Assembly: GCA_030737835.1 (NCBI GenBank)
Contig: CM060851.1
Span: 10,778,154-10,842,153 of the forward strand
Origin: Acorus gramineus
Lineage: Eukaryota > Streptophyta > Magnoliopsida > Acorales > Acoraceae
Direction: 5' to 3'
DNA: 64,000 bases
Below are positions 7,262 to 42,667 of this stretch, one piece after another. How positions within the stretch are numbered: position 1 is the stretch's first letter; every line of letters starts with the position of its first letter. A program made the position numbers and the translations under genes. The notes under the pieces are model-generated. The model was given only the letters and a program-made list of their open reading frames with translations. It searched no databases and was not told the origin of the DNA.

Positions 7262-7768
7262 TCACACCTGGCATCCTTGAGCTCCTAAGTGTCCTCGACA
7301 CCGGAACGGTGCTGCCATCGCACCTCGACCAACTGGACGGTCTTGGTGCAGAGCCTCCTCACGCGGCGGTCCATGATCACAATCGACTGCTCCACGAATG
7401 ACTGTCCGGCTCAGAGACGAGCGGCTCGAACGGGATGACGTGAGCAGGATCGTGGACACACCTTTACCCAACTGCGAACCCACCCTCCAAGACGGAAGGG
7501 TAAGAATTGGCGCTGAGGTGAGCCTCCGATAAAACTCCAGGAAGCTCTCCTCGCAAGACGGGGACCACTCGAACCGGACATCCTTCCAAGTAAGGCGGTT
7601 AAGAGGAACAGCTATCTTCGAGAGACCCTCGTCAAGCTTCCTGCAATAACTCGCCAAACTCGGGAAGCTCCGAATCCTAGCAGGGTTCGACGGTCGACGC
7701 CAATTTGACGCGACGAGCGTCTTGCCCGGGTCCACAGATATGCCTTCACCAGAAATCACTCGGCCCAA
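7262..7768 (-). pseudogene. Gypsy-1 pol remnants: end of RT plus pol C-terminus
   Basis: Two separate scraps of pol are joined here. The first (about 7768 to 7480) reads like the RT thumb/RNase H connection of Ty3/gypsy elements: GRVISGEGISVDPGK, then FPSLASYCRKLDEGLSKIAVPLNRLTWK and FEWSPSCEESFLEFYRRLTSAPILTLP. The second (about 7405 to 7262, in another frame) reads MDRRVRRLCTKTVQLVEVRWQHRSG, the chromodomain-like end seen in Tekay/Del-type pol. In that end a stop codon stands where a conserved tryptophan is usual. RNase H and integrase between the two are gone. No product is expected. Confidence 0.8.
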
Positions 7769-7789
7769 AAGGCCTTAACCCCACCAAAA

Positions 7790-8480
7790 CTCACACCTGA
7801 TCTTCCATCCATTTGATGCTTCCATGGTATCCCTTGCCTGGGAAAAGAAACCTCGAGAGGGCACCATGAAATCCCGATATAGGATACCCCGACAACCAAA
7901 CAAGGAACACGAAGTACCCTAGCCCGGGTTTCAACGCTGACCTCACAAGGCCCCTTAATCCAGAAAGGAACACTAGAAGAAGACATCATTTAAAGAACAC
8001 TACTAACCCCTCCGGATCATCTATCTCTAGATGATCACCCAACGATGTCCTTCAACATCATTTACAAGACCGAACCCAACATCATCGGGAATGGTCGAAT
8101 CAACAATTTGGTCACGAGCGACCCGTCTTCGCCTCATCCACACCCTCACTCCCGAAAGGAGACATTTTGGGACTTTGGGAGAGACTTAGACTGCTCTACA
8201 CCCCTGGTCCACCGGTAGCCTCTCCCCGCTCCGTAGCTCGCCTGGTCCTCTGACCGGGAGCCTGTCTAACGCCGGGGCTGTACTACGCGGATCCAACGAA
8301 GGGGAGAGCGATTCCACGCTCGCGGCACCATTCAATAATCTCTCCCGGGTAGCCCCTACCTGGTATACTCCCAGATTCAGTACCCCTCCGACTGCATCGG
8401 TGGTACCTACTGATGGGAACTCTCTGCCAGGACGGCTACAACCCGGCTTCCTTAACCCAAACAACCGTTCTTGACACTCA
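7790..8480. repeat. Diverged, reordered LTR-like block inside Gypsy-1 core
   Basis: The core between the pol scraps and gag contains sequence related to the element's own LTR. About 7840-7955 matches the 120-bp LTR module, and about 8160-8440 matches the LTR part around 4390-4650 (TTTTGGGACT, GGTCCACCG-TAG, GGATCCAACGAAGGGGA, CCTACTGATGGGA). The order of the two parts is the reverse of that in the LTR. The block stands where protease and most of RT should be. It may be a piece of a related LTR brought in by recombination. Confidence 0.7.
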
Positions 8481-9950: not shown

Positions 9951-10050
9951 ATCAGCACCCTAAGAAAACCAGACACTAGGATCAGAATACTCATATAGAA
10001 ATCCTAGGACTCATCTCTACGAAAGGAAGACTATTGGCTCTGACAGGACC

Positions 10051-10064
10051 AGGCTCTGATACCA
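10051..10064 (-). other. Gypsy-1 primer-binding site
   Basis: On the minus strand TGGTATCAGAGCCT lies six bases inside the 5' LTR. It matches the 3' end complement of plant initiator tRNA-Met, the common primer of plant LTR elements. Confidence 0.85.
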
Positions 10065-10069
10065 ACTTT

Positions 10070-13000: not shown

Positions 13001-13553
13001 CGCGCACCGAAACCTTTCCCCAAAGGCCTCCAACGCCGGGATCTTCCTTGGCCCTCGAATTGGCCCAAATCAGAGGAGAAAAGAGGGGGGATGGAGGGGC
13101 CAATCTTCTCGGAATTCGAATCCGAGAACACCGGGGCGTAGATCGGGACCCGATCTACTCTTTCTATGTTATGGGTTTTGAGTTTCAAGCCCTCCAAGGG
13201 GCTCAAAACCAAGAAAAATGGAGGAGAGAGAGAGAGCTCAAGGAGGAAGATGATGAATAGTGCTAGACTTTTCTCACCCCTCTTATATAAAGTCAACTCA
13301 CTTAAAAACCCGGATACGCCCCGGAACTGTGAAATTCCGAAAACGTTGCCGGAATTCGATAAATTTTCGTGAGAGGCCTAAAATGGCACCAGGACACCAA
13401 ATATGCAGTTAGATTTCCAATCGGAGTCCTCTAACTCAGGACGATAGCTAACAGTCCAAAAATTAGCGGTTCCGAACGAATAACGAAAAAAATGAAAAAC
13501 TGCCAGAACGCTCCAACGGTTACCAGCAGGCTAAAAGTTACACATATATAACA
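10070..13553 (-). repeat. Gypsy-1 5' LTR
   Basis: 3,484 bp, the partner of 3701-7187. Differences are scattered single bases and short indels, most of them in the GC-rich block (about 11920-12920). It ends in ACA at 13553, next to the CTCAG target copy. Confidence 0.95.
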
Positions 13554-14424
13554 CTCAGTGCCCGGATTTGAAATATGAAGGCATTCATCCTCTCCGAATG
13601 AGAAGACTACCAAATCATCTGCAGATGTAATAGCCGCAGTGTTCTTGTCGTCATCCTTTTTCTTCTGATCATGTCCCTCTTTCTGTTCTCTTTTAAAAAT
13701 TCGGCAATACGTTTTAATGTGACCTGTTTTACCATAATGGTAACACGCAAAATCTCTGGACATTGATTTGCTTCTAGATCTGCCATGACCCTTTGGTCCT
13801 CGACTCTTGCTCCTCCCCCTGTTATCTATAACAAGTGCTTGTGGACTGTCTGAAGCCGTTGATTTTCTCCTTGTTTCTTCATTTAGCAAAGAGCTCGTAA
13901 CCGTACTCATAGACAATACACCTTCTGGAGTAGAATTACTCAACGTGACAACTAATGTCTCCCAACTGTCGGGCAAAGATCCCAAAAGCAACAAAGCCTG
14001 TAACTCATCATCTAGAGTCATCTTCATCGTGGTCAACTGGTTCACTAAGCTTTGAAACTCATTCAGGTGCTTTGTAACACTGTCACCTTTGAACTTTAAG
14101 TTCACGAGTTTTCTGATTAAAACACCTTGTTACTCGTAGTCTTTTTCTCATACAAAGACTGTAACGTTTTCCATAGAGTATGCGCATTCTTCTCATTAGC
14201 AACGTGATGAAATATGCTGGCATCAATCCATTGTCGAATAGCGGCAACACATCTTCTGTTCAACTTGGTCCAATATGCTTCTGACATTTTTTCTGGTTTG
14301 CTTTTATTTCCTCAATTGGTTCATACAAATCCTTATAGTAAAGGATGTCCTCCATCTTGGGCTTCCATATCAACCAATTGAAATTATTCAACTCAATCAT
14401 CTTTTCAATAGTATTATCTGCCAT
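13554..14424 (-). pseudogene. gag: Copia-1 gag
   Basis: Gag of the interrupted copia element. An ATG at 14424 opens MADNTIEKMIELNNFNWLIW, followed by a typical MEDILYYKDLYEPIE stretch. The frame is lost near 14115, where one T seems to be missing before the LIRKLVNL segment. It then continues in the next frame as VNLKFKGDSVTKHLNEFQSL through the UBN2-type Gag core to a zinc-knuckle relic. The knuckle reads CYHYGKTGHIKTYC, so the second cysteine of CxxC is a tyrosine or shifted. The segment ends in FGEDECLHISNPGTE at the Gypsy-1 junction; the protein resumes at 3700 with WVVDTGA. Confidence 0.88.
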
Positions 14425-19036: not shown

Positions 19037-19713
19037 CACTTTAACTGGACACACAAATGAGCTGGACATTTTCAGATAGATTTCCCGGTTCTATAAGTTC
19101 ACAAAAAGACCCCTGCATGTGCTATGAATAAGTCCCTCATACTTACAGACAGGTCCCTGAGAAAAAACGGCTGGTTTTGTCCTTTCCTGGGCTTTCTGCA
19201 GATCCAACCTTCGGTTCTACCATTTTCAAAAACAAATCCCTCAGATTTACAGACAGGTCCCTGAGAAAAACAGCTGGGTTTGTCCTTTCCTGGGCTTTCT
19301 GCATATCCAACCTTAGGTTCTACCAGCTTCACATATTTTGGGTTTAGGGACCTGTTTATAAATTTTAGAATCGGATAAAGGATCTGTTTGTAACACAGAT
19401 AGGGTCTAGTTGTGAAGCTGGTAGAATCTAAGGTTGGATCTGCAGAAAGCCCAGGCAAGGACAAAACCAGCCGTTTTTCTCAGGGACCTGTCTGTAAATA
19501 CGAGGGACTTTTTTGTGAAAATGGTAGAACCTAAGGTTGGATCTGCAGAAAGCCCAAGAAAGGACAAAACCAGCCGTTTTTTCTCATGGACCTGTCTGTA
19601 AGTACGAGGGACTTATTCATTGCACATGCAAGGGTCTTTTTGTGAAACTTATAGAACCGGGGGATCTATCTGAAAAATGTCCAGCTCATTTGAGTGTCTG
19701 GTTAAAGTGTCTG
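19037..19713. mobile_element. Foldback element with about 310-bp arms
   Basis: The left arm (about 19037-19330) reads CACTTTAACTGGACACACAA inward, and the right arm (about 19410-19713) is its near-exact reverse complement, ending GTTAAAGTGT. A loop of about 80 bp separates them. Each arm holds two copies of a module of about 100 bp (GATCCAACCTT, CTTTCCTGGGCTTTCTGCA, ACAGACAGGTCCCTGAGAAAAA). The whole would fold into a long hairpin. No coding potential is seen, and I did not find a clear target duplication. Confidence 0.8.
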
Positions 19714-22611: not shown

Positions 22612-24431
22612 CTGACCATCCACATGACCAACCTCATTATCTTAAAGCTCAACATATATCAATTCATGCAATGAAATAGTTTCTGTAGTATATATGTAGG
22701 CATGTTTTAACTTGGGGAGTTTAAAGGATTGTTACTTGTCCTGAGTTTAAACCTTTTGATAGGTTGGTAGAGGTATTCCATTTTCATAGATGCTGAGAAC
22801 AACTTAACATGTAAAGAAAAATAAAAAACAAAATACTTGCCTACTAAAAAAGCTTATATTTTTAGACCCCATTTCATTGGGGATTTAATGAAATAGGATA
22901 GAGGATAGACCTGGAAACTACTCATCCAGTCATCTCCCAGCATTTGTTTGGTTGGCTTTGATTTTTTTTACGCATATCAAATTTGGTTATATTTGATGGA
23001 TTAAGTAGAAATTGTCAGGCAATGGGTAATTAACCTAGATAAATTATTCAACCACCCTCTTTGATCTTTGAATTGCTAATCCAATTAAACTTGCCAGCCA
23101 GACGGGTTTTATAAAGTTACAAGTTGTTCCCTAGTCTTTATATTTCATTGACCAACCAAACAGGGGATTAAAATGTGCAATTGAATTTCCCTACTCATCA
23201 CATTGTCTTGATTAAAGACTAGATGATAAATCACTTTCCTGCTTAATCCTGAAAATAGTCGCCCTCATTTGTTTTGAGAATAAGAATATAAGTGAAAAAA
23301 GAATAGATGCACTCCTGAGAAAGATGTTTGTCTAGTGTGGATAAAATGTTGGTTGCTATAGTTGGGGAAACATGTGTAATTTATTCTTTTGCTATTCACA
23401 AGGCCCGGAGGGGGGGGGGGGGGGGGGGGAACTATAAACCAACCTCTTCTACACAGGTCATTTGCTAGCCAAATATACAAGTGATGTGCATTATGGTATA
23501 CAAAACACACATCCATGAGACAATACTGTTTCTATTCTTTAGATTGAATGATATCAAGCATAGTGCTGTTACACTCAAGTGTTTTACACCCCCCAAGATG
23601 CAGTCCCAGGTATCTCAGTAAACTCCTTCACTCACTGGAACGAGTATATTATTTAATTAATTGAAGTATATAATATTATAATTCATGTTTTTTAAAAGTA
23701 CATACCCATTAGATGAGGAATATGATTTAAAAAAAAATGAAAACATAGATAGATTATATTTTGCACAGTAAAATGAACTGAATGTAACAATTTCATATCA
23801 ACTATATCCTCATCCAATTGAAACCCCTCTTTCACTTCTTCCATTCTACATTCTTCATTGGAAAAAGAATCCCCCCAAAATACTCTAATCAAGAAAGCAT
23901 GCACATTTATAGGCAAGCTCTAAATTGATATGCAATTCCAAACAATTCAAACCAACCTGAGCCCTTCCCCACAGGCAACAAGCAACTTCTCATCCTTGTT
24001 GGGCACCTCTGCCTCCACCTGCTCCAAGAACCCATCATTAATGGTGGTCAGGCACTGTCCCGTCCAAAGCCCGATGTATCCGAAGTGCACCCACTTCTTC
24101 AAAAGCGTCACCGGCCCGACGTCGGTGTCCTCCACGAAGAGAGGCACGTGCATCGAATCCTTCACGTACGCCCTCTCCCTCTCCCACTCCGGTCTCACGT
24201 CCAGCAGTCTGAACCCCTCGGATGTCAGTACTGATGATGCGTCTTTGGGAGGCACCGCGCGCACGACGCCTGAGCTTATGAGCTGCTGAGAGGTGGTGCT
24301 GTTTGAGGTTGCGGAGACCTTCACATTTGCTCTGTTTGGGAGGCTTGTTTTGGGTTTGTCATGGTTGGGTTTCAGCAGTGGGGATTGTTGGAACTGGTTC
24401 ACATGCATTGCCATTTTTTTTTTTTTGTTCA

Positions 24432-24432
<1 letters not shown>
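22410..24432 (-). CDS. STR10: Rhodanese-like domain protein 10 (STR10-like), two exons
   Basis: Exon 1 is 23957-24432 and exon 2 is 22410-22611; the 1,345-bp intron has GT and AG ends. The join CTC-AG|G-TCC keeps frame and gives GEGLRSMIAVRML. The product is 225 aa, close to Arabidopsis STR10. The first 40 or so residues are rich in N, K, S and T and look like a plastid transit peptide. A rhodanese domain follows: LLDVRPEWERERAYVK, HVPLFVED, GYIGLWTGQ. The CGEGLRS loop carries the candidate active cysteine, with YKNLGWLGGGFNR behind it. The C-terminal IGGVSYYFLQVLFFLQVLG is hydrophobic and may bind a membrane. I chose ATG 24432; a second in-frame ATG at 24414 is equally possible. Family members are thylakoid or stromal sulfurtransferase-like proteins of uncertain substrate. 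Confidence 0.88.
22867..23166. repeat. MITE-like inverted repeat in the STR10-like intron
   Basis: The left end CCCCATTTCATTGGGGATTT and the inverted right end CCCCTGTTTGGTTGGTCAAT can be aligned, and both run on into AATGAAATA. About 300 bp, no coding. I could not fix a target duplication. Confidence 0.45.
23405..23431. repeat. Poly-G tract in intron
   Basis: An uninterrupted run of about two dozen G on the plus strand, inside the STR10-like intron. The exact length should be treated as uncertain in any assembly. Confidence 0.9.
23562..23790. repeat. MITE-like repeat, family A copy 2
   Basis: Starts GTGCTGTTACACTCAAG and ends GAATGTAACA, with the same internal words as copy 1 (TTAGATGAGGAATATGATTT). 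It lies in the STR10-like intron. Confidence 0.6.
23957..24432 (-). CDS. STR10: STR10-like exon 1
   Basis: Encodes the transit-peptide-like N-terminus and most of the rhodanese fold. The donor site after CTCAG is GTTGG. The 5' side is a TG/AG microsatellite. Confidence 0.85.
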
Positions 24433-24471
<39 letters not shown>

Positions 24472-24472
24472 T
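24416..24472. repeat. T, CT and CA microsatellite at the STR10-like 5' end
   Basis: A T run, then CT and CA dinucleotide repeats. On the gene strand this is TG then AG repeats leading into the start codons, so part of it is probably 5' leader and the A-rich part encodes the K-run at the N-terminus. Confidence 0.85.
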
Positions 24473-24788
24473 GTCATCTTATCTTGATTGTTCAATCTTG
24501 TTCTCATATTCTTGGTTGGGTGGGGGTGGGGTCGGTGAGATCGGCTTAGGTCCAATGCCAATACAATCGTGATTGTCAGATTTTATTATTTTGATATACA
24601 CAATTTAATTAAATTTTAAATTTTGAATTCTAAATTTAATTTTAAAATCTTATAAAATATATCAATCACAACAAAATGAGAAAATTAGACGATCACGAAT
24701 GCGTTGAATAATCAAATTAATCAATGCATGTTGAACCTAACCCGGACTGAGAATGCTGATATACTCAATCTTTTTTCCAGTCTCATTT

Positions 24789-24793
24789 GCAGC
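24789..24793. repeat. Target-site duplication of the Tat element, left
   Basis: GCAGC, identical to 38796-38800. Confidence 0.9.
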
Positions 24794-25679
24794 TGTAGCG
24801 AACAAAAATGTCCCTTACAAATTTTAAAGATGATGATATGCTCGGAGAGCAAATCAATACATAAAAAGGTGACGTGGGTACAACTCGATCTTTTAATCCT
24901 CTGATCCTCGGTCTCCTTTAAAGAGTGTCTCGAGAATTACAACTTCAGAGATTTTTACAAGTTTGTGAAAATTTAAAAGGAAGATGAAGAGGCTTGCGGT
25001 GCGTGATCCTTCGGGCCTTTTGAGTTTGAGCCTTGTTGTTTAGGACCAGCGGTGCTTTGTTCTTCACCCTTCTTGGATTTCTGAACTTGTAATTTGATTT
25101 GAAGCCGCTTTTTCTTGATCTTCCCTTCTCTGGACTTTCTCCTTCGTGAACAAAGTGAAGATATTCTTCAAGAAGAAGGTGGAATCGAGGGAGAGTTAGT
25201 ATTTCTCTCCCTTGGATTTTCTCCACACTTTTCTTTAAGAAGAAGGTGGAATCGAGGGAGAGTTAGTATTTCTCTCCCTTAGATTTTCTCCACACTTTTC
25301 TTTTTCTTCTTCTTTGGCTTTCTTGACTTCTCCTTCTTTTGGTGGGTTCTTCAAGAAGAAGATGGAATCGAGGGAGAGTTTGTATATCTCTCCCTTGGAT
25401 TTTTCCCCACACTTCTTCTTCTTCTTCTTGCTTTTGCTTTCTTCCTTCTCTCCCTTAGGCTTTTTTTGTTCTTGCCTTTCTTCCTCCTTTTTTTTTTCTC
25501 CCCCCCCTCCCTCCTATTTATAGAGGAAGGGAGGGGTGGTTATAAAAGGTAATGGGTAGTTTTAGGGGGTATGGGTAGTTAGGAAATTTTTTTTGACTTT
25601 TTATTTATTTATTTATTTGATTTGATTTAATTAAATTTGACTAATTCCTTTTCTTTTTTTTTTTTTTTTTGTGTCTACA
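24794..25679 (-). repeat. Tat element 3' LTR
   Basis: 886 bp. Longer than its partner because it has three copies, rather than two, of a module of about 70 bp (GAAGAAGGTGGAATCGAGGG, TTTCTCTCCCTTGGATTTT) at about 25160-25410. Confidence 0.93.
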
Positions 25680-25694: not shown

Positions 25695-26208
25695 GATGGA
25701 TAAAAGAGTCCAAGGACGAATTTTGTCATCCTTGATTAATTAATTAATTAATTATTTATTTTTATTTTATTTTATTTTTAATTCAAACTTGATTTCATTT
25801 AGATAGGGATGACATAACTATTAAGTATGTTAGGATGTTAAAATTTTAAATTTTGAATTTGATTTCATTAAGATATAGATGGCATAACTAAAATGTTTGT
25901 TGTGATACTCAATATTTCAAGTTTAAATTTTATCTGTTTAGATATATATAAAAACTTATGGAAAAAGTGGCTATAAATAGGAGTTACTCTCTTTCACAAA
26001 ACTATTAAATTAAATTAAAAGAGATAGAGAAGAAAGAGTCAATTTCCTCAACGAAACCATCTTGAAGCCATTCGAGGTTAGTATATGTGAATATAGGAAT
26101 TCTTTGATTTGATTTGTTTACTTCAAAGATAGCATGATGCAAACATAGATAATTCATGAATTTATGTTTTCATTCATACTAAAGAGTATATGCATATTTA
26201 TTTATTTA

Positions 26209-26253
<45 letters not shown>

Positions 26254-26728
26254 AAAAATTATTATTATTAAAATCTTTGAATGAATGCATGGCAGCAATC
26301 TCACGTTAAGATCAACGTGGATCTTCATGTGTGGTTTACTAAGATCAAATTTTTTTTTAAATGTCGGTGATTTATACACATCATAAAATAAATCTCAAAA
26401 TGAATTAAATGATATCAAATCTGATTTTATTAACATAGGGTCAATAGTTTGTTATTTTTTTTTTTTGAAAATGACAAAACTTCATATTAAATTGATTGTA
26501 ATCAAAGATTGATTTATTTATGGAGTTATTAAAGATTCAAAAGCTGTATTATCATTGTTGTTCCTAATATTATTATGATTATTTTATCTTTTTTTTTTTT
26601 TTTGAGAACCCTGTATAGTAGGGCCGGACTGGGCCCTGCGAGGCAGGGCCGTTCTGGGCCCTGGGAAGCAGGGCTGATCGTTTTTTATTTTTTATTATTA
26701 TTATTTGATACCTGTATTGTTTTTGTAG
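25695..26728. other. Non-coding part of the Tat element, 5' of the antisense ORF
   Basis: AT-rich, with a TTA microsatellite at about 26213-26244 and a short GC-rich group of GGGCC-CTG repeats at about 26618-26675. A TTTTTGTAG acceptor-like sequence stands right before the antisense start codon, so a leader intron is possible. Confidence 0.5.
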
Positions 26729-29700
26729 ATGACACGAAGGAGCTTCCGCGGTAACATGTTTTCTCAAAATATCCAACCTTCGTCTGGCGAGAAAAATATA
26801 GAATACGTTCATCTTCCTTCTGATGGTTGGATCGTGGAAGAGGTAGTCAAAGGAGTCAAATATTTACTTTTTCCCAATGTGATGATTGCGCGACATGGGA
26901 CAGTATCGAAAGAGAATCGTACGACATTGTCGCGTCTGAGGCTGATAGTTCATGGATGGCATGATCCAGATGGTGTACAATTTGACCCCAGTCTGTCTAT
27001 GCCATATATAAGCGAAAATATGCGTTCAGACAAAGAACCTCTTTCAGCTCATCCAAGACCTCTCTTATCACTTCCCTTTCATCATAATGAAGTGGAGAGT
27101 CATCCAATTCCTCTCATAGCATCTCGGATCTGCTCTCGTTCAGCTCGCTGGGGTGAGAGAATAAGGAGTCGAGGCGACATTCAGTATTTGAGCGGTTTTT
27201 GTGAATGGATGACTGAAGTCTATGAGGGGCTAGCAGCTCGGCAGGAGACCAAATCTTTTAGCCATTTTATGGAGCCAGCTTGTTTCGAATATTGTCGTCC
27301 TGATAGTATGTACAGAGCTCTTTGCGAACTTTGGTGCCCGGAGACGAATTCATTCGTTACAAGTGATGGAGAAATTAGCATCTCAATTTTTGAGATCAGC
27401 TTGATTTCTGGATGCCCCTTGGGAGGAAGCTATTATGAAGAGTCCGTGGTTGACTTACAGCGTATGATGGAGTTACCTGAATCACGTATTTGCTTGCTTT
27501 TGTATCGTGCATACGCTATCCTTACTGCCACACATCGCTCTGACAGAATCAAGCATTTCGACTGGATGGAGTTTTGGTATAGAGGTGACTTTCGCTTTCC
27601 AAATCCTTTGTGATCGCATATAGTAAGGAATGCGAAGGTAAAGCGGGCTTCTGATATCAAGAGACCATTACTCGTTTACAAGGGCGAAAAATGTTCGCAA
27701 TACGGAAAGATGGACCCCTTTGATCTTCTTAATGTTCATAAGGGAAGCAAAGAGGGCAAGGCAGTATATGAAGCAGCCTGTATCGTTCTTTTCCTCTGCA
27801 GATTTGCACTGCCTCAGAGCGGAGACTTAATTCGTCCGGGCACTTTTGTTTCTGCTGCACGTATAGTGACCGGGTTCCATTACAATTTCACGTCTGCCAT
27901 CCTTTGTAGCTGTATAAAGGGTTATCTCGTACTTATACAAGTTTGTCGACACTATCTTCCGCTCGTGGTGAAATCGGTCAAGCTACATCTTATTGTCCTC
28001 TCCATTACCTTTATGGTTGGATTGGGCTTCATTTCAGGAAGGGAGTATATGGTATAGTGAAATCCAAAAGTAGATTCCCCTTTTTGCCCAGCATCGCTGG
28101 TGCTCTAAATGCTTATATTGACTGGGAACCGTCCTTCATTGAGCCTCGTGCATTATTGCGTCGCACAAATAAAATAGGCTTCAATTTCTGTCCCAGAAGA
28201 TCAATTATGAATTTTGGCGAAGTTAGCCTTCTCGATGACCAAGATATGCCGCTGGATGCCTTTTATTTTTCTATCAGCTGCAGACCAGGGTATCTGATTT
28301 ATCGTCGTGGAGACGTAATTGATGTGGAGTCTTATAACCCACACCGGTTTGCACGACAACATGGTTTTGGACAAGACACTCCTGGAACTCCAATACGATT
28401 AATAGATCCAGTTGGTCCTTCACGAGCAATTCAGTTTTTCATGGCCCTTTTTAGAAGGAATGGATTGAGCTGGTTTACACCGCCGGGTTCTTTGACAGGC
28501 TCGAAGAATGCACCTTCTATAGAATATGACAGATGGCTTCGTGAAAAGATAAGACCCATGCTTGCTGATTTCTCGATTGAAATCCTTTTGGAGAGTGAAA
28601 AAGCTTCTTTCGAATACAACAAGAGTGAGGGGATAAGAGATCGCCAGCGCATCAACCCTGGTCCTTTACGGTTTAGATCACCTCAAACTTCTAAATCGGG
28701 AGATGTTGATATAACCACTAAAGACCAACAATCATCTTCCCATATTGCCAGAGATGGTGATGTCCCCAAGGTATTTACTGGGAAGCGAAAGAGATTGGCG
28801 AAACGATGCTTACAAATTCAGGCGGCACCATCCGTTTTATTAGAACCAACGCCGCTAATCGATGCTCCTCCAGTGACTACCTCAGAACTGATTCCCAAAG
28901 ATGTGTCATCCCAGGGAATTGCTTTAGAGGTTGTCAGCGATGGTGAATCTGCATTAGGAGCTGTTGATGAAGTTCCTTCTGCGAAAAAGATGGGTAATTT
29001 TTTTTTTTATGATTACCCTATATCCTTCTATTTTTTTTTGTGTGCACAGTTCCGCCTGAGCATATGTCTAGCTTGGGTCTACCCATTCCTTTAGACGATC
29101 TGGACAATATTGGCTTTGATAATTGGGACGGAGGTCGTGACTTTTCCATGTTACGGGACTTTATAGAGAACAGCCACCATGACAATGATGCAGAAGGTGC
29201 ATCGAAGGCTGCTGCTGATATGACTGAAGCTGAGTCTCAAGCAGTACATGTTGAAATTCAGCTTGAACCAGTTGAAGAGATTTCACTCGAATTTTTAGTG
29301 GTAACAAGAAACAAGTCATGTACAAGAGAAGATTTTAGGCGTTCTACGGCGCCTGTGATGCTTGGATTTTGCCGTCAATTCATTGCTGCTACTCTTGAAC
29401 CTTACTTGAATGCCGGTTTCACTGCTTTGAAGAACTGGTGGAGCTCGACGGGAATATTTTTTTGCGAGCAACTTCAGAAGTTTGATGTAGATGATCATGC
29501 TTTTGCTACTCACATGGAGTCATTCCTTTCTGACTGTGATGCCTACCATACCGCTCGAGCGACGCTCACTATGAATGCTGTTTCAGACACAGATGGTCAG
29601 CTTTCCTCCCTTGGTGAGGAAATCAGATCTTTCACTGAGAGTCGTGATGTAGCCATGTCTGAACTTGCTGCTGCCAAGTCGGAGCTCGATACTGCAAAGT

Positions 29701-29942
29701 CGGAGGAAGTGGCCGCTAGAATTATATTTGAAGAGGCCCAGGCTCATGTCACTGCTGCATCTAACATTGTTTCTATGAAGAACAATGCACTGAATACTTG
29801 GGATATTGCTTTGACTGACAAGCAGAATAAACAGGATCATCTTCGACAGTTGAAAAAGGCGAGGGTTACGGACATCCGCAATGTTGACGTTAGGAGAAAG
29901 GAGTTGATGCAGCGCCTTCAGAACTTTAGCTCCATATATTAG
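26729..29942 (+). pseudogene. Antisense ORF with plant mobile domain, one intron
   Basis: Runs opposite to gag-pol and converges with integrase. Starts ATG at 26729 (MTRRSFRGN). The first part has plant-mobile-domain features (PF10536-like): FCEWMTEVYEGL near 157, LWCPETNSF at 201-209, then GEISISIFEISLISGCPLGG. An in-frame TGA at 27611 interrupts it; the same frame stays open to about 27950. There the frame shifts and the domain continues as ARGEIGQATSYCPLHYLYGWIGLHF. A GT-AG intron of 56 bp (28994-29049) lies after SAKKM and restores the frame as VPPEHMSSLGLPIPLDDLD. The end is a predicted coiled coil (ESRDVAMSELAAAKSELDTA). Without the breaks it would be about 1,050 residues. Such mobile-domain ORFs occur in Tat-type elements and in MULEs; related host proteins include MAIN. 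Its role in the element is not known. Confidence 0.8.
28994..29049 (+). other. Predicted spliceosomal intron in the antisense ORF
   Basis: GTAATTTTTT at the start, a T-rich interior and TGTGCACAG at the end. Splicing joins ATG-G to TT-CCG and links two frames that otherwise do not connect. 56 bp is short for a plant intron. Confidence 0.65.
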
Positions 29943-30254
29943 CTTCTTTTCTTTTTTTTGTGTATATCCTCTCTTTTTTTTTGTTATGAATTTGTAATAA
30001 AGAATTGTGGATGATGATTGATGGTGATATATATTTATTTTTTGTTCAAATTAAACCTGATATAATTTCTTAGGCTATTTGCATGAAGATTTGGTAAGTG
30101 GTGATTTTTTGTCTGGACTGGACCTGATGTAACTTCTCAGGCTGCCTACGTACCCTTACTTAAGGCATCAAGTCACACGTAGTTCCCCCTTTTTTTTTTA
30201 TCCTTCCAACAAAGCGTTCAAGTTTTAGCCAGGCCGGGTTGGAACTTTTTTTTT
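29943..30254. other. Intergenic part between the antisense ORF and integrase
   Basis: T-rich, no reading frame. Since two convergent frames end here, transcript ends from both strands would fall in this stretch. Confidence 0.5.
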
Positions 30255-31487
30255 TTATGGATAGTACCTTTTGAGGAACTTTCCATTGATTGGACCAAGT
30301 TGAGTCCCTCCAGGAGTAGTTAATAGGTAAGCACCATTGGTGTAGACTTCTTTGACAATATGGGGGCCATCCCATTTAGCATCGAACTTCTTCCCTGCTC
30401 TATGGGACATGATGATAGGCCGTTTAACCGCCAACACAAGATCGTCCTTTTGAAAGGATCGAGGACGCACTCTCTTATTGAATGCGCGAGAAAGACGTGC
30501 CTGGTAGCATTCGATGCGTTGTTGTGCTTCAAGTCGCTTTTCATCTAAAGCTTCCAGTTCCGTTAGACGAAGCCGGACGTTGTCATCTTGAGTAAGCCCT
30601 TCTTGAATAGCAATTCTTAATGAAGGAATTTGAAGCTCGAGAGGAAGAATGGCTTCTACTCCGTATACAAGAGAATATGGGGTTGCTTGTGTAGGAGTTC
30701 GGAATGATGTACGGTAAGCCCAAAGAACTTCGCCTATACGTTCATGCCAATCCTTTTTCGACTTGGAAACTACTTTTTGTAGTAGTTTACACAAGGTCTT
30801 GTTGAAGGCTTCCGCTAATCCATTGGCTGGGGCATTGTACATCGTCGAGCGCCTTTGTATGATCTTGAACTTGGCACAAAATTGGTCCATGGCAGCATTT
30901 TTGAATTGTTTACCATTGTCTGTCACAATGAAGCGAGGAATGCCATATTAGAAAATAATATTATCTTGGATAAAGTTAATGACCGAATTCCGATTGACTT
31001 CTTTGAGAGGAATCGCTTCAGCCCATTTAGAGAAGTAATCTGTTGCGGCTAGGATATAGCAATGTTGTTTAGATGACTTTGGCAGGGGTCCGACTATGTC
31101 GAGTCCCCAACTATCGAATGGCCATGAAGCAACAGTAGGATGTAGGGGCTCTGGAGGCTGATGAATATAGTCCCCATGGAATTGGCAAGCTTGACACCCT
31201 TTTGAAAATTTCATGCAGTCTTTAACCATAGTAGGCCAATAATAACCCATTCTTTTGATATGAAGATGAAGCTTTGGCCCAGATTGATGTGTGCCACATA
31301 TACCAGAATGTGCTTCTTTGAGAGCTGTTTCTGCTTCTTCTTGCCTTAAACATCTCATCAAGACGCCATCATAACCACGACGATATAACTCGTCGTTAAA
31401 ATGAAGGAACCTCGATGCACGACGACGAATATCAATTTTGTGTTTTGCGTCATCTGGAAGCCTGCCGCGAGTAAGATAATTTATCAT
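30255..31487 (-). pseudogene. Tat element pol, integrase part
   Basis: Continues the pol frame after one in-frame TAG (31497-31499). It opens INYLTRGRLPDD, then the HHCC zinc motif (H in SGICGTHQ, CQACQ) and the integrase core: GLDIVGPLP, TDNGKQF and AEAFNKTL carry the DDE residues. A C-terminal segment follows (VLWAYRTSFRTPTQATPYSLVYG, KWDGPHIVKEVY, LKRYYP). A second in-frame stop lies at about 30945-30947, between DNIIF and YGIPRFIVTDNG. Both stops keep frame, so they are simple nonsense changes. Confidence 0.9.
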
Positions 31488-31496: not shown

Positions 31497-34400
31497 CTAA
31501 TATTTCTCTTCTGTCATAAATACATGGACCACATCTGTTTGTACTGGAATTTGATTGCTTGTATCATCTGTGACAACCACCCACTTGCGACAAAGAGGGA
31601 TGACCAAGCGGTTAGTGTCCGGGAGAGTAAGAGTAGTAGCCAAATTTGCCAGAGCATCTGCTTGTCGGTTGAGGCCCCTTGGAACATGTTGAATAGTGGC
31701 ATCATCAATAATATGGAACAATGTCAATGCCCTTGTATGATACGGTATCAAGTCTTCTTTATTAACTTGATATTCCCCCATAATCTGACAAATAACAAGC
31801 TTTGAATCACCATGAATTTGGAGTTCTCGAATACCCATATCGACAGCGAGTTCGAGGCCGATAATTAATGCTTGATATTCTGCCATATTATTAGAACATG
31901 GTTCGGATAGGACGAAAGAAAATGGGAGAACTTCATCTTTAGGTGTGACAAAGACGATTCCTGCCCCTGCCGCTTCACGTCTTGCAGCGCCGTCAAAGAA
32001 CATCTTCCAAGATGGAACAATGTCAATAGAAAGCACTTCTTCGTCAGGAAAATTTTCAGTCAATTCCCATTCAGCAGGGATTGGATAATCTGCTAGAAAG
32101 TCGGCCAATACTTGTCCTTTTATAGCCTTTTGAGAGACAAAGATGATTTCAAACTCACTCAGAAGGAGAGCCCATTTTGCTAGCCGTCCTGAGAGAACTG
32201 GCCTGGACATAATATACTTGAGGGGATCTGCTTTAGAAATAAGTCTGATCGTGTGTGCGAGCATGTAATGCCGAAGTTTCTTCGTGGTGAAAATGAGTGC
32301 AAGACACATCTTCTCAATTGGCGAATAGTTTAATTCGGCACCAATAAGAGTACGACTGAGATAATAGCACGCCACTTCTTTGCCAATATGATTTTCTTGA
32401 GCAAGGAGTGCCCCGATAGAGTGTTCTTGAGCACTAATATATAGAATAAGGGGTACACCAGGAACTGGAGCAGATAGAACTGGTGGCTTTAATAAATATT
32501 GTTTGATGCTATTGAGGGCGTTTTGGCAAGTAGCATCCCACTTGAAGATGGTATCCTTCTTCATGAGTCGGCTAAAGGGGTGACACCTTCCAGCCAAATT
32601 TGAAATAAACCTTCTGATGTAAGCCAAGCGACCTTGTAGACTTCTAAGGTCATGTAATGATTTGGGTTCGGGCATGTTGAGAACAGCATCAATTTTGGAT
32701 TGATCTATCTCAATGCCACGATGCCTAACAATGAAGCCAAGAAATTTCCCCGAAGTGACTCCAAATGCGCATTTGAGCGGGTTCATTCGAAGTTGATATC
32801 TTCGTAGACGATTGAAAATATGTCGAAGATCATCAAGGTGAGAGGTCCTTTGTTTAGACTTCACAACGAGATCATCAACGTAACATTCAACCGTTTGGTG
32901 GAGAATATCATCGAAGATCTTTTGCATGGCGCGCTGGTAAGTAGCACCTGCGTTCTTCAAGCCAAATGGCATCACTTTATAGCAATAGATGCCTTTTGGA
33001 GTGCGAAAAGCTGTGAGTTCTTCATCTTTGGGTGCCATTCGAATCTGATTATAGCCAGAAGATCCATCCATGAATGATAGCGCTTCATGACCAGTTGTCG
33101 CATCCACCATAAGTTCAGTAATTGGCAATGGAAAATCATCTTTAGGACACGCATTGTTCAGATCTCTGAAGTCTACGCATATCCTGATTTGTCCATTCTT
33201 CTTTTCTACTGGTACGATGCTCGAGATCCAAGTAGGATATTTGACCTCTCGGATGAAGCCGGCTTCAATTAGCTTGTTGACTTCATTCTCGATTTGTGGG
33301 ATTAACTCGGGTCGGTAGCGTCTTTGCCCTTGTTTAATAGGGCTAGCGCCATGCCGAACAGCAAGTTGGTGTACAGCAATTTTAGGATCCAATCCTGGCA
33401 TCTCTTTATAAGACCATGCAAAGACGTCTTTGTACTCCTGAAGAAGTTTAACATATGCAGCTTCTTCTTCTAGAGCTAGAAGTGCACTAAGGAAGGTTGG
33501 GCGTGGATCTTCTTCGGTGCCCAAATTGACTTCTTTTAAGTCATCTACGGTGGATCGTTCTCTTTCATCAAGATCAGGCTGTGCGTCCAGCAATTCGTCG
33601 TCCGAATGAGAAGTATTCTCAATGTTTGGCTCGTCATGAATGGAATTGTGGTTGACGGAGACAACAATGGATGTAGAAGAATCATCCATAGGGGCATCAG
33701 AAGGTGGACGAGTAGTGATGACTACTGTCCTTGGCTTGACACAAGAAGGATCATTCGATGCAGACACTTGAATGGTAGTAAGCTTCGAGGAGAACGGATA
33801 CATAGGGCTATTTGAGGATGTCGTAAGTTGTCGACCCTCTTTGTGATTGCCCCCAAGTCGGCGACGTTGTCGGGTGGGGCGAGTGGGCTCCATGGTTGTC
33901 TTCGAAATGGGAGCGATCGGTCCCAAACGACTGAATACTGACTGTCGAGTCGATGGAGCATGGACAACCTTGGATTTCGTCTTTGACTTTTCAGGCCTTC
34001 GGGATACTGAAGTAACCCTTTGTTTGGGGTTTTGTTGTACAAAATGAAGCTCTTGAATGACTTCATCATGCCCCCCAAGCCTAGCTTGATGTTGTGCTTG
34101 TCTGCCTCGTCTTCTTGTACGCCTGGATTTTGACTGAGTATTGTTGATGGACGCCGATGTTGGATTAACTTGAGGTGATTGCGACTCGGACGTGGAAGAA
34201 TTGTTCGTCATTTCCACTTGAATATGATTAGAGGAGAGGTCTCCTCTGATGGCTGACTTAACGACGATTGGAGTTGGCACAAAGCCCAGGCCACGTCTGG
34301 ATATAGGTATCTTTTCTCCGGCATGAATGAGGTGAGCTTGAGTCTTGGTCATCCCGCACGGGATTGTTTTTGGGGGAAGCGTCCCTAGAGATGCCATATC

Positions 34401-36260
34401 GCTAATGTGGAAGCCCGCCTTTTGTAGCAATTTTGACGACTTCTTGCTCCAATGACCTTCTGGTACGAAGCCTGACAATGGAGGAATTGTCACTGATGTA
34501 GGTGTCAAGGCATGCAAGGGCAAAATCATCTTTTGCTGAAGTGCGACAATGTCAGCTTCGGTGAATAATGACTGCAATTTCGTAGCTGCTGATGTGAATA
34601 GTGGTTGTTCTGATGTACGATGCGCTTTGGAAATGAGGCGTAACACAGGGCCAACTTGAGCATTGGTTGGAGGATGTGGATTGATTCCCCGTACATGCTT
34701 GATTCGCATCTTTCTGTTAGAAGTAGATGTAGTTTGCTCTTCAACATTTTTCTTGATGCCGTGTGGAGTTTTCATCGGCAATGCTTCGGCGACTACACCC
34801 GTTGCTTGATAGAATTTAGCATCAGCAAGATGTATTTCTGTTTTGGTGAAGGGTTTGCTGTCAGCAGCGACACATTTTTCCACACCGTCTTTATAATATT
34901 TGAAGCATTGGTGCCAAGTAGAGACGACTACCCCATTTTCATGTAGCCATGGCCTCCCCAATAGAAGACGATATGAAGTTCTACAATCAATGACATGGAA
35001 GAGAATCATTGTATCAAGTTCGCCAATTGAGAGCTTTAGGCGTATGATACCAATAGTAGATTGTCCGGCTTGGTTGAACCCTTGAATAACCAATTGGCTT
35101 TGAGAAAGCTCACTGGTTGTAATGCCTAATTGTTCCATGGTCTGGACAGGCATGATGTTGACAGCAGAACCACAATCTAGCAATATGCGAGTTATTTGCT
35201 TCTCTCTGATGTATCCTGACACATAGAGGGGCCTATTGTGAAGGCGGACTCCAAGTTGCAGGTCTTCATCAGAGAAAGATATGGTGAAGTTGCAAGACGG
35301 TGATGCCCCCTCTTCTTGATGCGCTTCAGATTCTCTCTTATAATCATCAGGGTTGGTCAAGACTGCTGCCATGGTGAGGCGTGCTTCTTCTGAGAGATGC
35401 AACGCTTCAATGAGAGGTAGATGAAGAATAGCCTCCTGGTAGGAAGCAGAATGATCTTCAGTAGCTTGTGGGCTGACGAGGGCCTTTTCATCATCGGAAT
35501 GGTCAACTTTGGAAGACTCCGCCAAGCTAGAGGTAGTAGGGAGCATTTCAACGCTCTTTTCTAAATCATGGACCTCCACCATATAGCAAGTCTCCGTGGG
35601 AGAGGTTGAAGAAGAACTGGAAGGAGGGAGTGTTTCAAGGGCGTCGGCTTCAATGGAATTTGCCAGAGTAGGTGGACCCGGGAGATTCTTTTCAATAAGA
35701 TCTGCAGGGTCTGTCTGGGTTGCTTTGGATATTTGCCCTGTAGCCATCCTCCTTACTTGAGGATCTGGGAAACACGACTCCTCATTGCGCATCTTCATAG
35801 TCCATTCTTCTTTGTCGATAAGGTCTCCCTCCCTTGGAGTTTGGGATTCCAATGCTTCGCCTCCCCACCCATCAGGGGCAGGATGTACTTCTGGTTCTGG
35901 CATAGGAGTGACATCAGTGTTAAGAGGAAACAACTCCCCTGAAGCAACTCGAGCAGGGAGAGATGGAGCATTTGGGGCAAAGCCTTCTAAAATATTCTTC
36001 TTCTTTAAGAGTTCTTTTGTCAATCTTGAGACGGTGTGTATTCCTCCCGAATGCTGAAACTTGATATTCATCCCGCGAAACGCGTTCCAGATGTGGATCA
36101 TATCGCATACGAGCATGTGTGCAATTACAAGTTGGCAATGGCTTTGGTGGATCAAGCTCCTTTGGGATTTGAACAGATGAGAAGAAACCGAAGGAGACTG
36201 ATGTTGTATTTGCTGATGCGACATCTCCCAAGTCAAGCTCAATTTTTCCCTGACGTGCAA
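31497..36260 (-). pseudogene. Tat element pol: protease, RT, RNase H, second RNase H
   Basis: A very long open frame, overlapping the end of gag in another frame. The first 70 or so residues are probably not coding; the frame becomes protein-like near KFQHSGGIHTV. The retropepsin motif LLDCGSAVNIMP lies near 358. RT starts near 990 (KLIEAGFIREVKYPTWISS), with VDFRDLNNACPKDDFPLP and the catalytic YVDDLVV near 1127. The usual RNase H follows near 1270 (SIGALLAQE). A second, archaeal-type RNase H lies near 1417-1545 (MFFDGAARR, MAEYQALIIGLELA, GDSKLVICQ, HVPRGLNRQADALANLA). This second RNase H marks the Tat lineage. A long low-complexity spacer lies between protease and RT. It ends at a nonsense codon before integrase. 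Confidence 0.92.
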
Positions 36261-37920
36261 GATCCATCACCTTCTCTTTGAACACGAAGCATTGCTCAAT
36301 GGGGTGGCTAACTACCCTATGATATTTGCAGTATAGCAGGTCATTGACACGATCTGCTTGTTCAGGCCTCTTTGACTCGGGGAGTTCAATCATCTTCTCT
36401 TTGAGTAACTGATCGAACATGGTGGAGACTTCAGAGTCTGGGAAAGGGTACACCTTGGCTTTAAGTTCCTCAAGGGTCATTCGTGGCGCTTTCTTATGAG
36501 AGGAGCCTGGATCAAGTTTGCTTTTGTCTGCTGCACCACTCGTCCCCCATGGTTTTGAGGAAGACGCGATATTGACGACATTCACATGCTTCTTCTTAGG
36601 CGCAGATGCTTTGTCTTTGTCATCTTTTGCAAAGTCCTTCGGCTTGAAGTCTCCGTGAGTGGCCAGGCTAATCTCCATATCGTGCGCTCGAGTAGCCAAT
36701 TCTTCAAAGGTATGAGGTTTGATTCCCTTGAGAATATAGAGAAGGCCCCAATGCATGCCTTGGATGCACATTTCGATTGCTGAAGTTTCTGACAATCGAT
36801 CTCGCGAATTAAGAGCAAGATTCCTCCACCGGTCAATGTAATCGATCACCGATTCTTCCTTGCGTTGTTTAACTGCAGCCAACTCCACCATGCTGACAGT
36901 ACGGCGAGTGCTATAGAAGCGAGTGAGAAATTCTCGTTCTAAAGCCTCCCAACTGTCGATTGATGCGGGCAAAAGATCGACGTACCAATCGAATGCATTC
37001 CCCTTTAGGGAGCGCACGAATTGCTTCACCATCAAGTCGTCATAAGTGCCAGCATTGTTGCAGGTTTCGATGAAATGGGCAATGTGTTGTTTTGGATTGC
37101 CCTTCCCATCAAAATGCTGAAATTTTGGTGGTTGGTATCCCGATGGAAAGCGGAGCTGCTGGATACGTTGAGTGTACGGCTTTGAATATCCTGCTGAAGA
37201 TTGGACATATCCACCATTTTGAGTGCGGACCATGTCTGCCACTAATGACTGTAATTGTTGTACAGTCATAGCCGGAGCAACTGAAGCTTGAGACGCCGCG
37301 AGAACTGTCGTTGGAGGAATGACCATCGATTGCTCAATGGGCAAAGTTGATGCAGGGACAGCATTTGGTGACACAGGTATCTGATTCGAGACGCCGGTAT
37401 CATCCTTCGAGCCAGATTTTTGGAGAAGAATACTAATTTGACGGTCCTTCTCCATCATCATCTGAGCCATCTGCGCCATGGATTGATTGAGCTGCTTAAT
37501 TTGCTCCTCGAGTTTGGACATCGAGGGATGGTTGTGAGTGCGCCTTGCCCCCGGCGTGGGCCCATCGGATCTGGCGTTGGCGTCGTCATCGGAGATGTAA
37601 TTACGACGAATTACAGTCTCCACTTCATCTTCGGTACGCGATACTCGAACATGAGCACCAAGATCATTTGAATCGTCATGCACTTCCTGTGCTGTTGCAT
37701 TATTGGCATTCTTCATCGTACCTTCGTCTTCCATTTCTGGAACGAGGGTTGATGTCGTAGCTCTAGCTCGCCTAGTGTAGACGCGCATGCCAGGAGTGGT
37801 GACTGGTATTGCATCGTGCGCCTCCTGGAAAAGATTTTCCAAACCTCCTTGTTGAAGTGAAGTAGGGTCAACAAGAGGCGTTTCGCTTGCAGGAATGGCG
37901 TTGGTGTTGGCTTCGGCCAT
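35920..37920 (-). CDS. gag: Tat element Gag
   Basis: ATG at 37920 (MAEANTNAIPAS), about 95 bases inside the 5' LTR. A coiled coil is likely at about 133-167 (KLEEQIKQLNQSMAQMAQMMMEKD). The Retrotrans_gag core lies at about 250-400: PPKFQHFDGKGNPKQHIAHF, VRSLKGNAFDWYVDL, FLTRFYSTRRTVSMVEL, WRNLALNSRD. A cysteine/histidine motif of the Tat type, CKYHRVVSHPIEQC, lies near 527. After about residue 600 the frame diverges from the expected gag-pol continuation, which is in the frame used by 31497-36260, so a frameshift near 36050 is likely. Gag would form the RNA-packaging particle. Confidence 0.9.
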   Translation of the reverse strand: MAEANTNAIPASETPLVDPTSLQQGGLENLFQEAHDAIPVTTPGMRVYTRRARATTSTLVPEMEDEGTMKNANNATAQEVHDDSNDLGAHVRVSRTEDEVETVIRRNYISDDDANARSDGPTPGARRTHNHPSMSKLEEQIKQLNQSMAQMAQMMMEKDRQISILLQKSGSKDDTGVSNQIPVSPNAVPASTLPIEQSMVIPPTTVLAASQASVAPAMTVQQLQSLVADMVRTQNGGYVQSSAGYSKPYTQRIQQLRFPSGYQPPKFQHFDGKGNPKQHIAHFIETCNNAGTYDDLMVKQFVRSLKGNAFDWYVDLLPASIDSWEALEREFLTRFYSTRRTVSMVELAAVKQRKEESVIDYIDRWRNLALNSRDRLSETSAIEMCIQGMHWGLLYILKGIKPHTFEELATRAHDMEISLATHGDFKPKDFAKDDKDKASAPKKKHVNVVNIASSSKPWGTSGAADKSKLDPGSSHKKAPRMTLEELKAKVYPFPDSEVSTMFDQLLKEKMIELPESKRPEQADRVNDLLYCKYHRVVSHPIEQCFVFKEKVMDLARQGKIELDLGDVASANTTSVSFGFFSSVQIPKELDPPKPLPTCNCTHARMRYDPHLERVSRDEYQVSAFGRNTHRLKIDKRTLKEEEYFRRLCPKCSISPCSSCFRGVVSS

Positions 37921-37989
37921 GGTTGTACTTCGAACGCCTTAGAAGAAGGAAGTTCGAGCTTGATGGAAATGAGGGATGAGAGGAGATGA

Positions 37990-38015: not shown

Positions 38016-38795
38016 TGTAGCGAACAAAAATGTCCCTTACAAATTTTAAAGATGATGATATGCTCGGAGAGCAAATCAATACATAAAAAGGTACAACTCG
38101 ATCTTTTAATCCTCTGATCCTCGGTCTCCTTTGAAGAGTGTCTCGAGAATTACAACTTCAGAGATTTTTACAACTTTGTAAAAATTTAAAAGGAAGATGA
38201 AGTGCGTGATCCTTTGGGCCTTTTGAGTTTGAGCCTTGTTGTTTAGGACCAGCGGTGCTTTGTTCTTCACTCTACTTGGATTTCTGAACTTGTGATTTGA
38301 TTTGAAGTCGCTTTTTCTTGATCTTCCCTTCTCTGGACTTTCTCCTTCGTGAACAAAGTGAAGATATTCTTCAAGAAGAAGGTGGAATCGAGGGAGAGTT
38401 AGTATTTCTCTCCCTTGGATTTTCTCCACACTTTTCTTTAAGAAGAAGGTGGAATCGAGGGAGAGTTAATATTTCTCTCCCTTGGATTTTTCCCCATACT
38501 TCTTCTTCTTCTTCTTGCTTTGGCTTTCTTCCTTCTCTCCCTTAGGCTTTTTTTGTTCTTGCCTTTCTTCCTCTTTTTTTTTTTTTCTCTCCCCCCCTCC
38601 CTCCTATTTATAGAGGAAGGGAGGGGTGGTTATAAAAGGTAATGGGTAGTTTTAGGGGGTGTGGGTAGTTAGGAAATTTTTTTTTTGACTTTTTCTTTTT
38701 TTTTTCATTTATTTATTTATTTTGATTTGATTTGATTTAATTAAATTTGACTAATTCCTTTTCTTTTTTTTTTTCTTTTTTTTTTTGTGTCTACA
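38016..38795 (-). repeat. Tat element 5' LTR
   Basis: 780 bp, partner of 24794-25679, with two copies of the 70-bp module and slightly different homopolymer runs. Confidence 0.93.
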
Positions 38796-38800
38796 GCAGC
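38796..38800. repeat. Target-site duplication of the Tat element, right
   Basis: GCAGC, identical to 24789-24793. Confidence 0.9.
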
Positions 38801-39915: not shown

Positions 39916-39931
39916 TGAGATAATACACTTA

Positions 39932-40480
39932 CCCCCGTTTGGGATGAAGCATAAACCATGGATATGAGAGAATACAGTAGAATAGCCCCCAAACAGCTGT
40001 TTATTTGATAAGAATAAACCTTGATAGCTATGTCTGGATAAGCTAGGATAAGGCCTGATAACTATTCTAAGAAAATGGTGGAATTGCTTATCAGGGTTTA
40101 TCTATGCTAATGGATAAAAATACCCTTCTCTGTCATTTTAAAAATTTTATCTAACCTAACACTCTCTGCACACATTCCAAAAACTGTCACATCTATCATA
40201 TCACACACACATCTCTCATACTTATTCCCAAACATAAATAATTTATGCAGGGGTATAGTTGTCATTTAAAAAGTTATAAACTCTTATCCATCTCTTATCT
40301 ACCATTTATCCTTACTTTATCTAAGGTGAACCAAACAACAAAAAGATCAATTTTACGTTTCCCAATGAGAATAACAGAAAAGACAACCAAACAAAAATTT
40401 ACTTATTCAGCATGGATTGTTATCTATCCTAGTATAGCTATCAAGAGCGAATAATCTTATGTCACACCCCAAACGGGGGG
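39932..40480. mobile_element. PIF/Harbinger-like MITE, copy 1 (549 bp)
   Basis: Inverted ends CCCCCGTTTGGG and, at the right, CCCAAACGGGGGG reversed, with TTA on each side (39929-39931 and 40481-40483). The 3-bp TTA duplication and G/C-rich ends fit Tourist-type elements. A second copy of equal length lies at 42119-42667. Confidence 0.88.
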
Positions 40481-41798: not shown

Positions 41799-42118
41799 TT
41801 TAAAAAATGGAAGGGGCGGTGTTTGATCCATTGAAGTACATTACTTATACTTAATTGTTTGTGAAGCCAAATAAATTAAATGATGTAATTAATACAAAAT
41901 ATAAAAAACCTCCAACGAGGTTACAGTGAGCGGAGGAAACTCATGAGACTACTATTTAAAATTATAAAAAAGATAAGTATATCGGTGTTCCCTAGAAAGA
42001 TTTTTTTATATCAAAATGTATTGATGCGTCTATTAAAAGGTATTTATAAGCTTTTCCATTTTTATAAATTTTTAATTGATAAAAGATTTTTAACTAGCGT
42101 GTTCGCTCTAAACATGTA

Positions 42119-42667
42119 CCCCCGTTTGAGGTGGAGCATAAACGATAAATAGGGGAGAATACAGTAGAATAACCCCCAAACAGCTATTTGTTTGGTAAGA
42201 ATAAACCTTGATAGCTATGCCTAGATAAGCTAGGATAAGGCCTGATAACTATTCTAAGAAAATGGTGGAATTGCTTATCAGGGCTTATCTATGCCAATGG
42301 ATAAAAATATCATTCTCTGTCATTTTAAAAATTTTATCTAACCTAATACTCTCTGCACACATTCCAAAAACTGTCACATCTATCATATCACACACACATC
42401 TCTCATACTTATTCCCAAACACAAATAATTTATGCAGGGGTATAGTTGTCATTTAAAAAGTCATAAACTCTTATCCATCTCTTATCTACCACTTATCCTT
42501 ACTTTATCCAAGGTGAACCAAACAACAAAAAGATCAATTTTACGTTTCCCAATGAGAATAACAGAAAAGACAACCAAACAAAAATTTACCTATTCAGCAT
42601 GGATTGTTATCTATCCTAGTATAGCTATCAAGGGCGAATAACCTTATGTCACACCCCAAACAGGGGG
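42119..42667. mobile_element. PIF/Harbinger-like MITE, copy 2 (549 bp)
   Basis: Same ends, length and interior as copy 1, with scattered base changes. TTA follows on the right (42668-42670); the left flank is GTA. It ends 284 bp downstream of the phospholipase C stop codon. Confidence 0.88.

Follow-up and report, generated by a model that had tools for sequence, protein, structure and literature searches.

Accessory open reading frames (ORFs) are an established component of Tat-lineage retrotransposons. An extra ORF carrying the plant mobile domain (PMD, PF10536) was present in 57% of the Ogre elements surveyed (Neumann 2019, PMC6317226), in an analysis that called single ORFs of at least 250 codons with getorf (PMC6317226). 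According to citing papers, the PMD extra ORFs of Ogre/Tat elements are also covered by Steinbauerova 2011. The PMD clades A1 and A2 are described as encoded exclusively by Gypsy elements, which are widespread in angiosperms (Ikeda 2017, PMC5418596). For the cellular PMD genes MAIN and MAIL1 a role in silencing has been reported, together with a nuclear location for MAIL1 (PMC5418596). Antisense accessory genes have also been described: gene23 of the maize element Grande lies antisense between pol and the 3' LTR, has its own upstream promoter and encodes a nuclear protein (Gomez-Orte 2013, via PMC7264820), and the latter source calls for a search for spliced antisense transcripts.

The window analysed here, a 64,000-nucleotide stretch of the Acorus gramineus genome (G000:C5:10778154-10842153; 398.6 Mb in 137 contigs searched), contains, on its minus strand, a Tat-type element of the Ty3 group, 14.0 kb long. 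On the opposite strand, between integrase and the 3' LTR, lies a gene that encodes a PMD followed by a coiled coil and converges on gag-pol. Its frame is antisense to gag-pol, located between pol and the 3' LTR and found in many copies, as specified for an aORF-3R. We consider it probable, on the evidence of the sequence and its relatives, that the element here carries a complete accessory gene in antisense orientation, equipped with two introns and with a promoter and poly(A) signal of its own. The features of the element and of the gene are, in window positions:

24794-25679, minus strand: 3' LTR of the Tat-type element (TG...CA)
25971-25980, plus strand: CTATAAATAG, TATA-box-like element, in 17 of 17 rows
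26002-26076, plus strand: probable 5'-UTR exon without ATG, its start site placed by distance from the TATA-like element
26077-26728, plus strand: probable 5'-UTR intron of 652 nt, GAG/GTTAGT ... TTTTTGTAG/ATG, from donor and acceptor context
26729-28993, plus strand: first coding exon, with N-terminal region, PMD and basic KRKRLAKR (frames, Pfam, copy alignment)
28994-29049, plus strand: GT-AG coding intron of 56 nt, phase 1 (window and copies)
29050-29942, plus strand: second coding exon, with conserved helical region, coiled coil and terminal stop codon (copies, structure model)
29996-30001, plus strand: AATAAA, poly(A)-signal-like, in 18 of 20 close rows and in L034, L035, L037 and L060
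30258-31496, minus strand: integrase region, with in-frame stops at 30948-30950 and 31497-31499 in the window copy
31500-36266, minus strand: pol ORF with weak protease match, RT, RNase H and additional RNase H (Pfam)
35923-37938, minus strand: gag ORF (Retrotrans_gag, 50.5 bits, Pfam)
38016-38795, minus strand: 5' LTR of the Tat-type element

The element is flanked by a GCAGC target duplication (24789-24793 and 38796-38800). Its LTRs differ by 14 substitutions in 750 aligned sites (K2P 0.019, one LTR taken a base short), which, at assumed rates of 1.3e-8 and 7e-9, corresponds to an insertion age of about 0.7 to 1.4 million years. Pfam recognises gag, RT, RNase H, an additional RNase H and integrase. 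The element fits the Tat lineage (Ogre, Retand), because the additional RNase H (RVT_3, residues 1424-1543) sits between RT_RNaseH (residues 1271-1372) and integrase, an arrangement described as a feature of these two angiosperm clades (PMC6317226). Within the lineage, the Ogre clade is characterised by an intron-like region that separates a GAG-PROT ORF from RT-RH-INT; in the window element the protease match is weak (19.4 bits, cut-off 28.2) and lies in the same ORF as RT, and the gag and pol frames overlap. Another Ogre-clade trait, an extra ORF with PF10536, is present, and Transposase_28 (PF04195), a trait of the Retand clade, gave no match at E up to 1 in the window and sister frames. 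A search for the primer tRNA detected no tRNA within the window.

A minus-strand ORF of 211 aa (23950-24582) lies about 0.2 kb from the Tat-type insertion and has no Pfam match at E up to 0.001; we take it to resemble the start of a rhodanese-like plastid protein, and the insertion may lie within or next to a host gene. A copia-type element (601-14129; pol 601-3752, gag 13434-14129) seems to be split by the insertion of a Ty3-type element that is GC-rich (gag 8481-9959) and flanked by similar GC-rich stretches, and a second copia-type element on the plus strand (45009-51525) includes a GC-rich repeat stretch near 47.3-47.6 kb. The window also contains a MITE-like inverted repeat (19098-19646, 236-nt arms, 93% complementary) and two 300-nt direct copies with 93% identity (39925-40224 and 42112-42411).

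In the window copy, the antisense gene is distributed over three plus-strand frames. An ORF at 26729-27610 ends at a TGA (27611-27613), after which the frame continues unchanged to about 27910; the next ORF (27910-29091) lies in another frame and the last (29013-29939) in the third. The first coding exon is thus broken here, by the TGA and by a frame break near 27912. The sequence-only reading had proposed a PMD and coiled-coil gene antisense within a Tat-type element, and this description is upheld by the position of the frames, by the PMD scores of the sister copies and by a helix in a structure model. In the PF10536 search, two pieces of the window match in the order of the profile, with 29.7 bits (E 4.8e-7, profile 8-99) and 16.1 bits (E 0.0067, profile 273-294), and remain short of the curated threshold of 34.9 bits, whereas all four first-coding-exon frames submitted from sister copies exceed it (59.6-62.3 bits). 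NCBIfam returned no match for the two proteins searched. The basic KRKRLAKR stretch is present in 17 of 21 rows of the copy alignment. An AlphaFold model of the last segment, computed from the single sequence, supports a coiled coil in the second coding exon: one predicted helix (residues 180-295, pLDDT 61-94 per 10-residue block) is its sole confident part, and the remainder is poor (mean pLDDT 54.6, pTM 0.25). Codon-usage scores trained on gag/pol switch their preferred plus frame at the GT-AG stretch. Through much of the first coding exon, however, the frame does not stand out by these scores, and minus-strand frames score equally high there.

A DNA query covering 28600-29500 gave 43 matches in the assembly, and the main alignment comprises the window and 20 copies (21 rows). 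The start ATG is present in 18 of these rows, the first coding exon is open in four, and the entire spliced frame is open in two, so that sister copies with an unbroken frame, as anticipated from the window alone, do exist. Within this alignment, only the window and L039 carry the TGA and the frame break near 27912. Both lesions are probably older than the insertions of these two copies, unless the L039 contig represents an allele, against which its 97% identity to the window argues. Two diverged copies of the antisense gene, L034 and L035 (G000:C5:18462421-18468205), lie in opposite orientation within about 3 kb of each other.

The coding intron was originally put forward because a 56-nt GT-AG stretch joins two frames exactly. 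The stretch is indeed present at 28994-29049 (75% AT, 57% T), but exact joining was rejected as a test for an intron, since 23 GT-AG pairs in this part of the gene would join the frames open. The support is instead supplied by the sister copies, which provide convincing evidence, at the level of aligned sequences, that the stretch has the properties of an intron. Nineteen of 21 rows show the donor GTA[A/T], one shows GTTT and one has lost the donor; the acceptor AG is present in all 21, and the length ranges from 33 to 71 nt and falls into every class modulo 3. Read without splicing, the frame of the second coding exon is reached in only four of the 21 rows, and five contain a stop inside the stretch. 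Beyond the aligned rows, L030 and L032 retain both intron ends, and one locus (L033/L038) has lost the AG. A GT-AG intron also occurs at the same place in diverged loci: in L034/L035 (two copies, 55 and 50 nt), L059 (69 nt) and L061 (35 nt). Across copies the boundaries thus persist and the length and content drift. In L060 and L037 the acceptor side alone is visible; the first coding exon seems to have been deleted there, because the sequence preceding the acceptor resembles an LTR end. The proposal that an antisense intron could not be removed by way of the sense genomic RNA is supported: none of the 21 rows shows precise intron loss, as expected if no copy derives from spliced antisense RNA.

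It is unlikely that splicing does not occur at all and that two independent antisense ORFs are separated by a T-rich spacer subject to drift, the second ORF being translated from its own ATG or by reinitiation. The stretch is short, and plant introns below about 70 nt are often poorly spliced. When retained it is stop-free in 16 of 21 rows, slippage on poly(T) would account for the length drift, and the second coding exon of the window contains an early in-frame ATG. However, this ATG is ACG in L060 and L061, which argues against separate initiation there, and in L034, L059 and L061 the tail of the first coding exon is open right up to the GT, the boundaries holding despite differing intron contents.

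The ends of the gene were examined in the leaders of 16 of the 20 copies (17 rows with the window). The TATA-like element lies about 0.3 kb inward of the 3' LTR, and an antisense promoter at CTATAAATAG is likely. A donor-like GGTTAGT is kept in 16 of 17 rows, and TTTTTGTAG directly precedes the ATG at 26729. The interval 26077-26728 is likely to be a 5'-UTR intron, because this AT-rich stretch (75% AT) holds 16 ATGs and the putative 5'-UTR exon none. In shuffle controls TATAAATA occurred in 19% of leaders, which makes this motif weak evidence by itself, compared with 7.5% for AGGTTAG or AGGTAAG and 2% for AATAAA within 100 nt of the stop. The surroundings of the AATAAA are similar in L034, L035, L037 and L060.

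The frame was expected to show dN/dS below 1 in its relatives, and this was confirmed. When the family was compared with diverged loci, all 23 HSPs that spanned 60 columns or more gave a dN/dS below 1 (0.15-0.60, with 17 values of 0.35 or less; dS 0.3-1.2); the other ten of the 33 HSPs were shorter and left out. The measure is biased toward conserved segments, and the HSPs do not count as independent observations, because the L034 and L035 loci overlap each other and L061 comprises two copies. In the close copies (18 rows, with L041, L053 and L055 dropped), omega is 0.55 for changes common to at least two copies (0.60 in the first coding exon, 0.43 in the second) and 1.01 for singleton changes; the integrase, used for comparison, gives 0.36 and 1.27, respectively. 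Off-frame controls for shared changes give 1.01, 1.05, 0.98, 0.63 and 1.07, of which the 0.63 belongs to an antisense frame and counts against a clean contrast. A 20-row version yields 0.64 for shared and 0.99 for singleton changes; in Fisher tests, shared and singleton changes differ with p 0.01 over the whole gene, 0.07 in the first coding exon and 0.04 in the second. Plain codon-position counts in the close copies, which showed no third-position excess, were replaced by replacement and silent counts, off-frame controls and diverged loci. Taken as sequence comparisons, these results demonstrate purifying selection on the antisense frame. They also render it very unlikely that the antisense transcript acts as RNA, either as double-stranded RNA or as a non-coding regulator of gag-pol, with an incidental reading frame: the transcript would converge on pol, and antisense RNA functions have been discussed for such elements (PMC7264820), yet the low dN/dS against diverged loci and the shared replacement deficit need a protein, with which an RNA role could coexist.

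The gene is not carried by all relatives. Among 40 leader-bearing places, 27 have both coding exons within 9 kb, two only the first, one only the second, and ten neither; the tally is based on 48 of 59 rows of one match list and 45 of 71 rows of the first-coding-exon protein list, and the remaining rows adjoin tallied ones by their coordinates, except C2:3157452, which has no leader nearby. In L031, a deletion fuses the T-rich parts of both introns and removes the PMD exon, leaving the leader, donor, acceptor and coiled-coil exon. In L082 (G000:C7:14112420-14114420), the gene body corresponding to 26170-30034 is absent and the promoter-like leader is kept; its pol end matches the window at 99.2% identity over 1493 bases, with an integrase frame that stays open to the end of the locus. 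The deletion junction is common to six places, including L082, with 88-100% identity. Judged from these sequences, the antisense gene is dispensable in cis, because it has been lost entirely, through this common deletion, at six places, at one of which the adjacent integrase frame is open. Such gene-less relatives speak against the gene being required for every transposition; it may work in trans, or confer a benefit only occasionally. Another deletion form, in which first-coding-exon residues up to 181 adjoin second-coding-exon residues from about 116, is shared by copies at C1:1009723-1010726, C2:29525707-29526710, C69:1024620-1025491 and C69:1039171-1040042.

The origin of the gene was addressed by comparing the first-coding-exon protein with the genome, which gave 71 matches with 35-100% identity (59 of 312 candidates scored). 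Many of them adjoin the leader or the second coding exon of the element; inspection covered part of the matches, with some diverged ones (around C7:2179501-2183158 and C2:3157452) outside it. Eight other PMD loci show 26-38% identity over 47-95 residues only, and no host gene or MULE was recognised as the closest relative among the scored candidates in the assembly. The suggestion in the sequence-only reading of a captured host or MULE gene is, within these scored candidates, not supported as far as a recent capture is concerned. It is also very unlikely that a PMD gene of the host or of a MULE, once captured or inserted, is decaying in the element as a passenger without a role. In favour of this view, most rows are broken, singletons are neutral (omega about 1) and a gene-less subfamily exists. 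Against it, purifying selection is seen both in the shared changes and in the comparison with diverged loci (dS 0.3-1.2), and L060, although its second coding exon has only 57% identity, retains the convergent position next to integrase.

A functional antisense accessory gene would operate as follows. RNA polymerase II would transcribe it from its own TATA-type promoter, and both introns would be spliced from the antisense transcript. The template of LTR retrotransposition is the sense RNA. In this RNA the introns would be present as reverse complements, invisible to the spliceosome, and they would survive transposition because the sense RNA alone is reverse-transcribed. The PMD coiled-coil protein would be likely to enter the nucleus by means of its basic KRKRLAKR stretch and might, by analogy with the host PMD proteins MAIN and MAIL1, modulate silencing or expression of the element, a function suggested by the name of the domain. 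Action in trans would explain the relatives that spread without the gene. Combined into one model, a three-exon gene with its own promoter is spliced twice; its nuclear PMD coiled-coil protein acts in trans on the silencing or expression of the family, as a convergent plant counterpart of spliced antisense retroviral genes; the introns are kept because the sense strand alone is copied, and possibly aid escape from RNA silencing; and gene-less subfamilies use the protein of complete copies. We propose this model as a whole only tentatively, as one that may well be wrong in some of its parts.

Genes that pass through an RNA stage are expected to lose their introns. The antisense gene appears to escape this rule, and the escape has held across relatives at dS of about 0.3-1.2. 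The introns would also offer a strand-specific handle on expression, as a spliced read can only be antisense, and surveys based on single ORFs would split or truncate accessory genes that bear introns. Trans action becomes testable through the gene-less subfamily, in which one copy read has an open integrase frame.

Compared with the described systems, the gene resembles the Ogre/Tat PMD ORFs in being an additional ORF with PF10536 carried by a Ty3 element of the Tat lineage. It differs in lying antisense beyond integrase and in having a coding intron and probably a 5'-UTR intron; no extra-ORF intron is described in the accessible text of PMC6317226 and PMC5418596. With Grande gene23 it has in common the antisense location between pol and the 3' LTR and, probably, a promoter upstream of the gene (PMC7264820). 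By contrast, PMC7264820, in the text available, mentions neither a PMD nor an intron for gene23 and reports no clear similarity of such proteins to others. Retand elements with Transposase_28 antisense ORFs likewise possess a conserved gene in antisense orientation, within a long region that separates pol from the 3' LTR (PMC11963269), and the word intron does not occur in the main text of that paper; the gene described here differs by its lack of a Transposase_28 match. MAIN and MAIL1 share the PMD but are cellular genes. A parallel in organization is offered by HBZ of HTLV-1 and other deltaretroviral antisense genes, which are spliced, accessory, located at the 3' end of an LTR element and encode a nuclear product (PMC10186651), splicing and nuclear location being predicted for the present gene. 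The HBZ protein appears unrelated, and HBZ is transcribed from a promoter within the 3' LTR, whereas the present TATA-like element is located inward of the LTR; the parallel would be at most one of similar working, not of relatedness. PMDs in Tat/Ogre elements, antisense accessory genes, an antisense promoter (Grande gene23) and spliced antisense deltaretroviral genes are already published. In the literature searched, which covered few subscription papers, no report was found of an intron inside an antisense plant retrotransposon gene, and it is the introns within such a gene that appear to be new.
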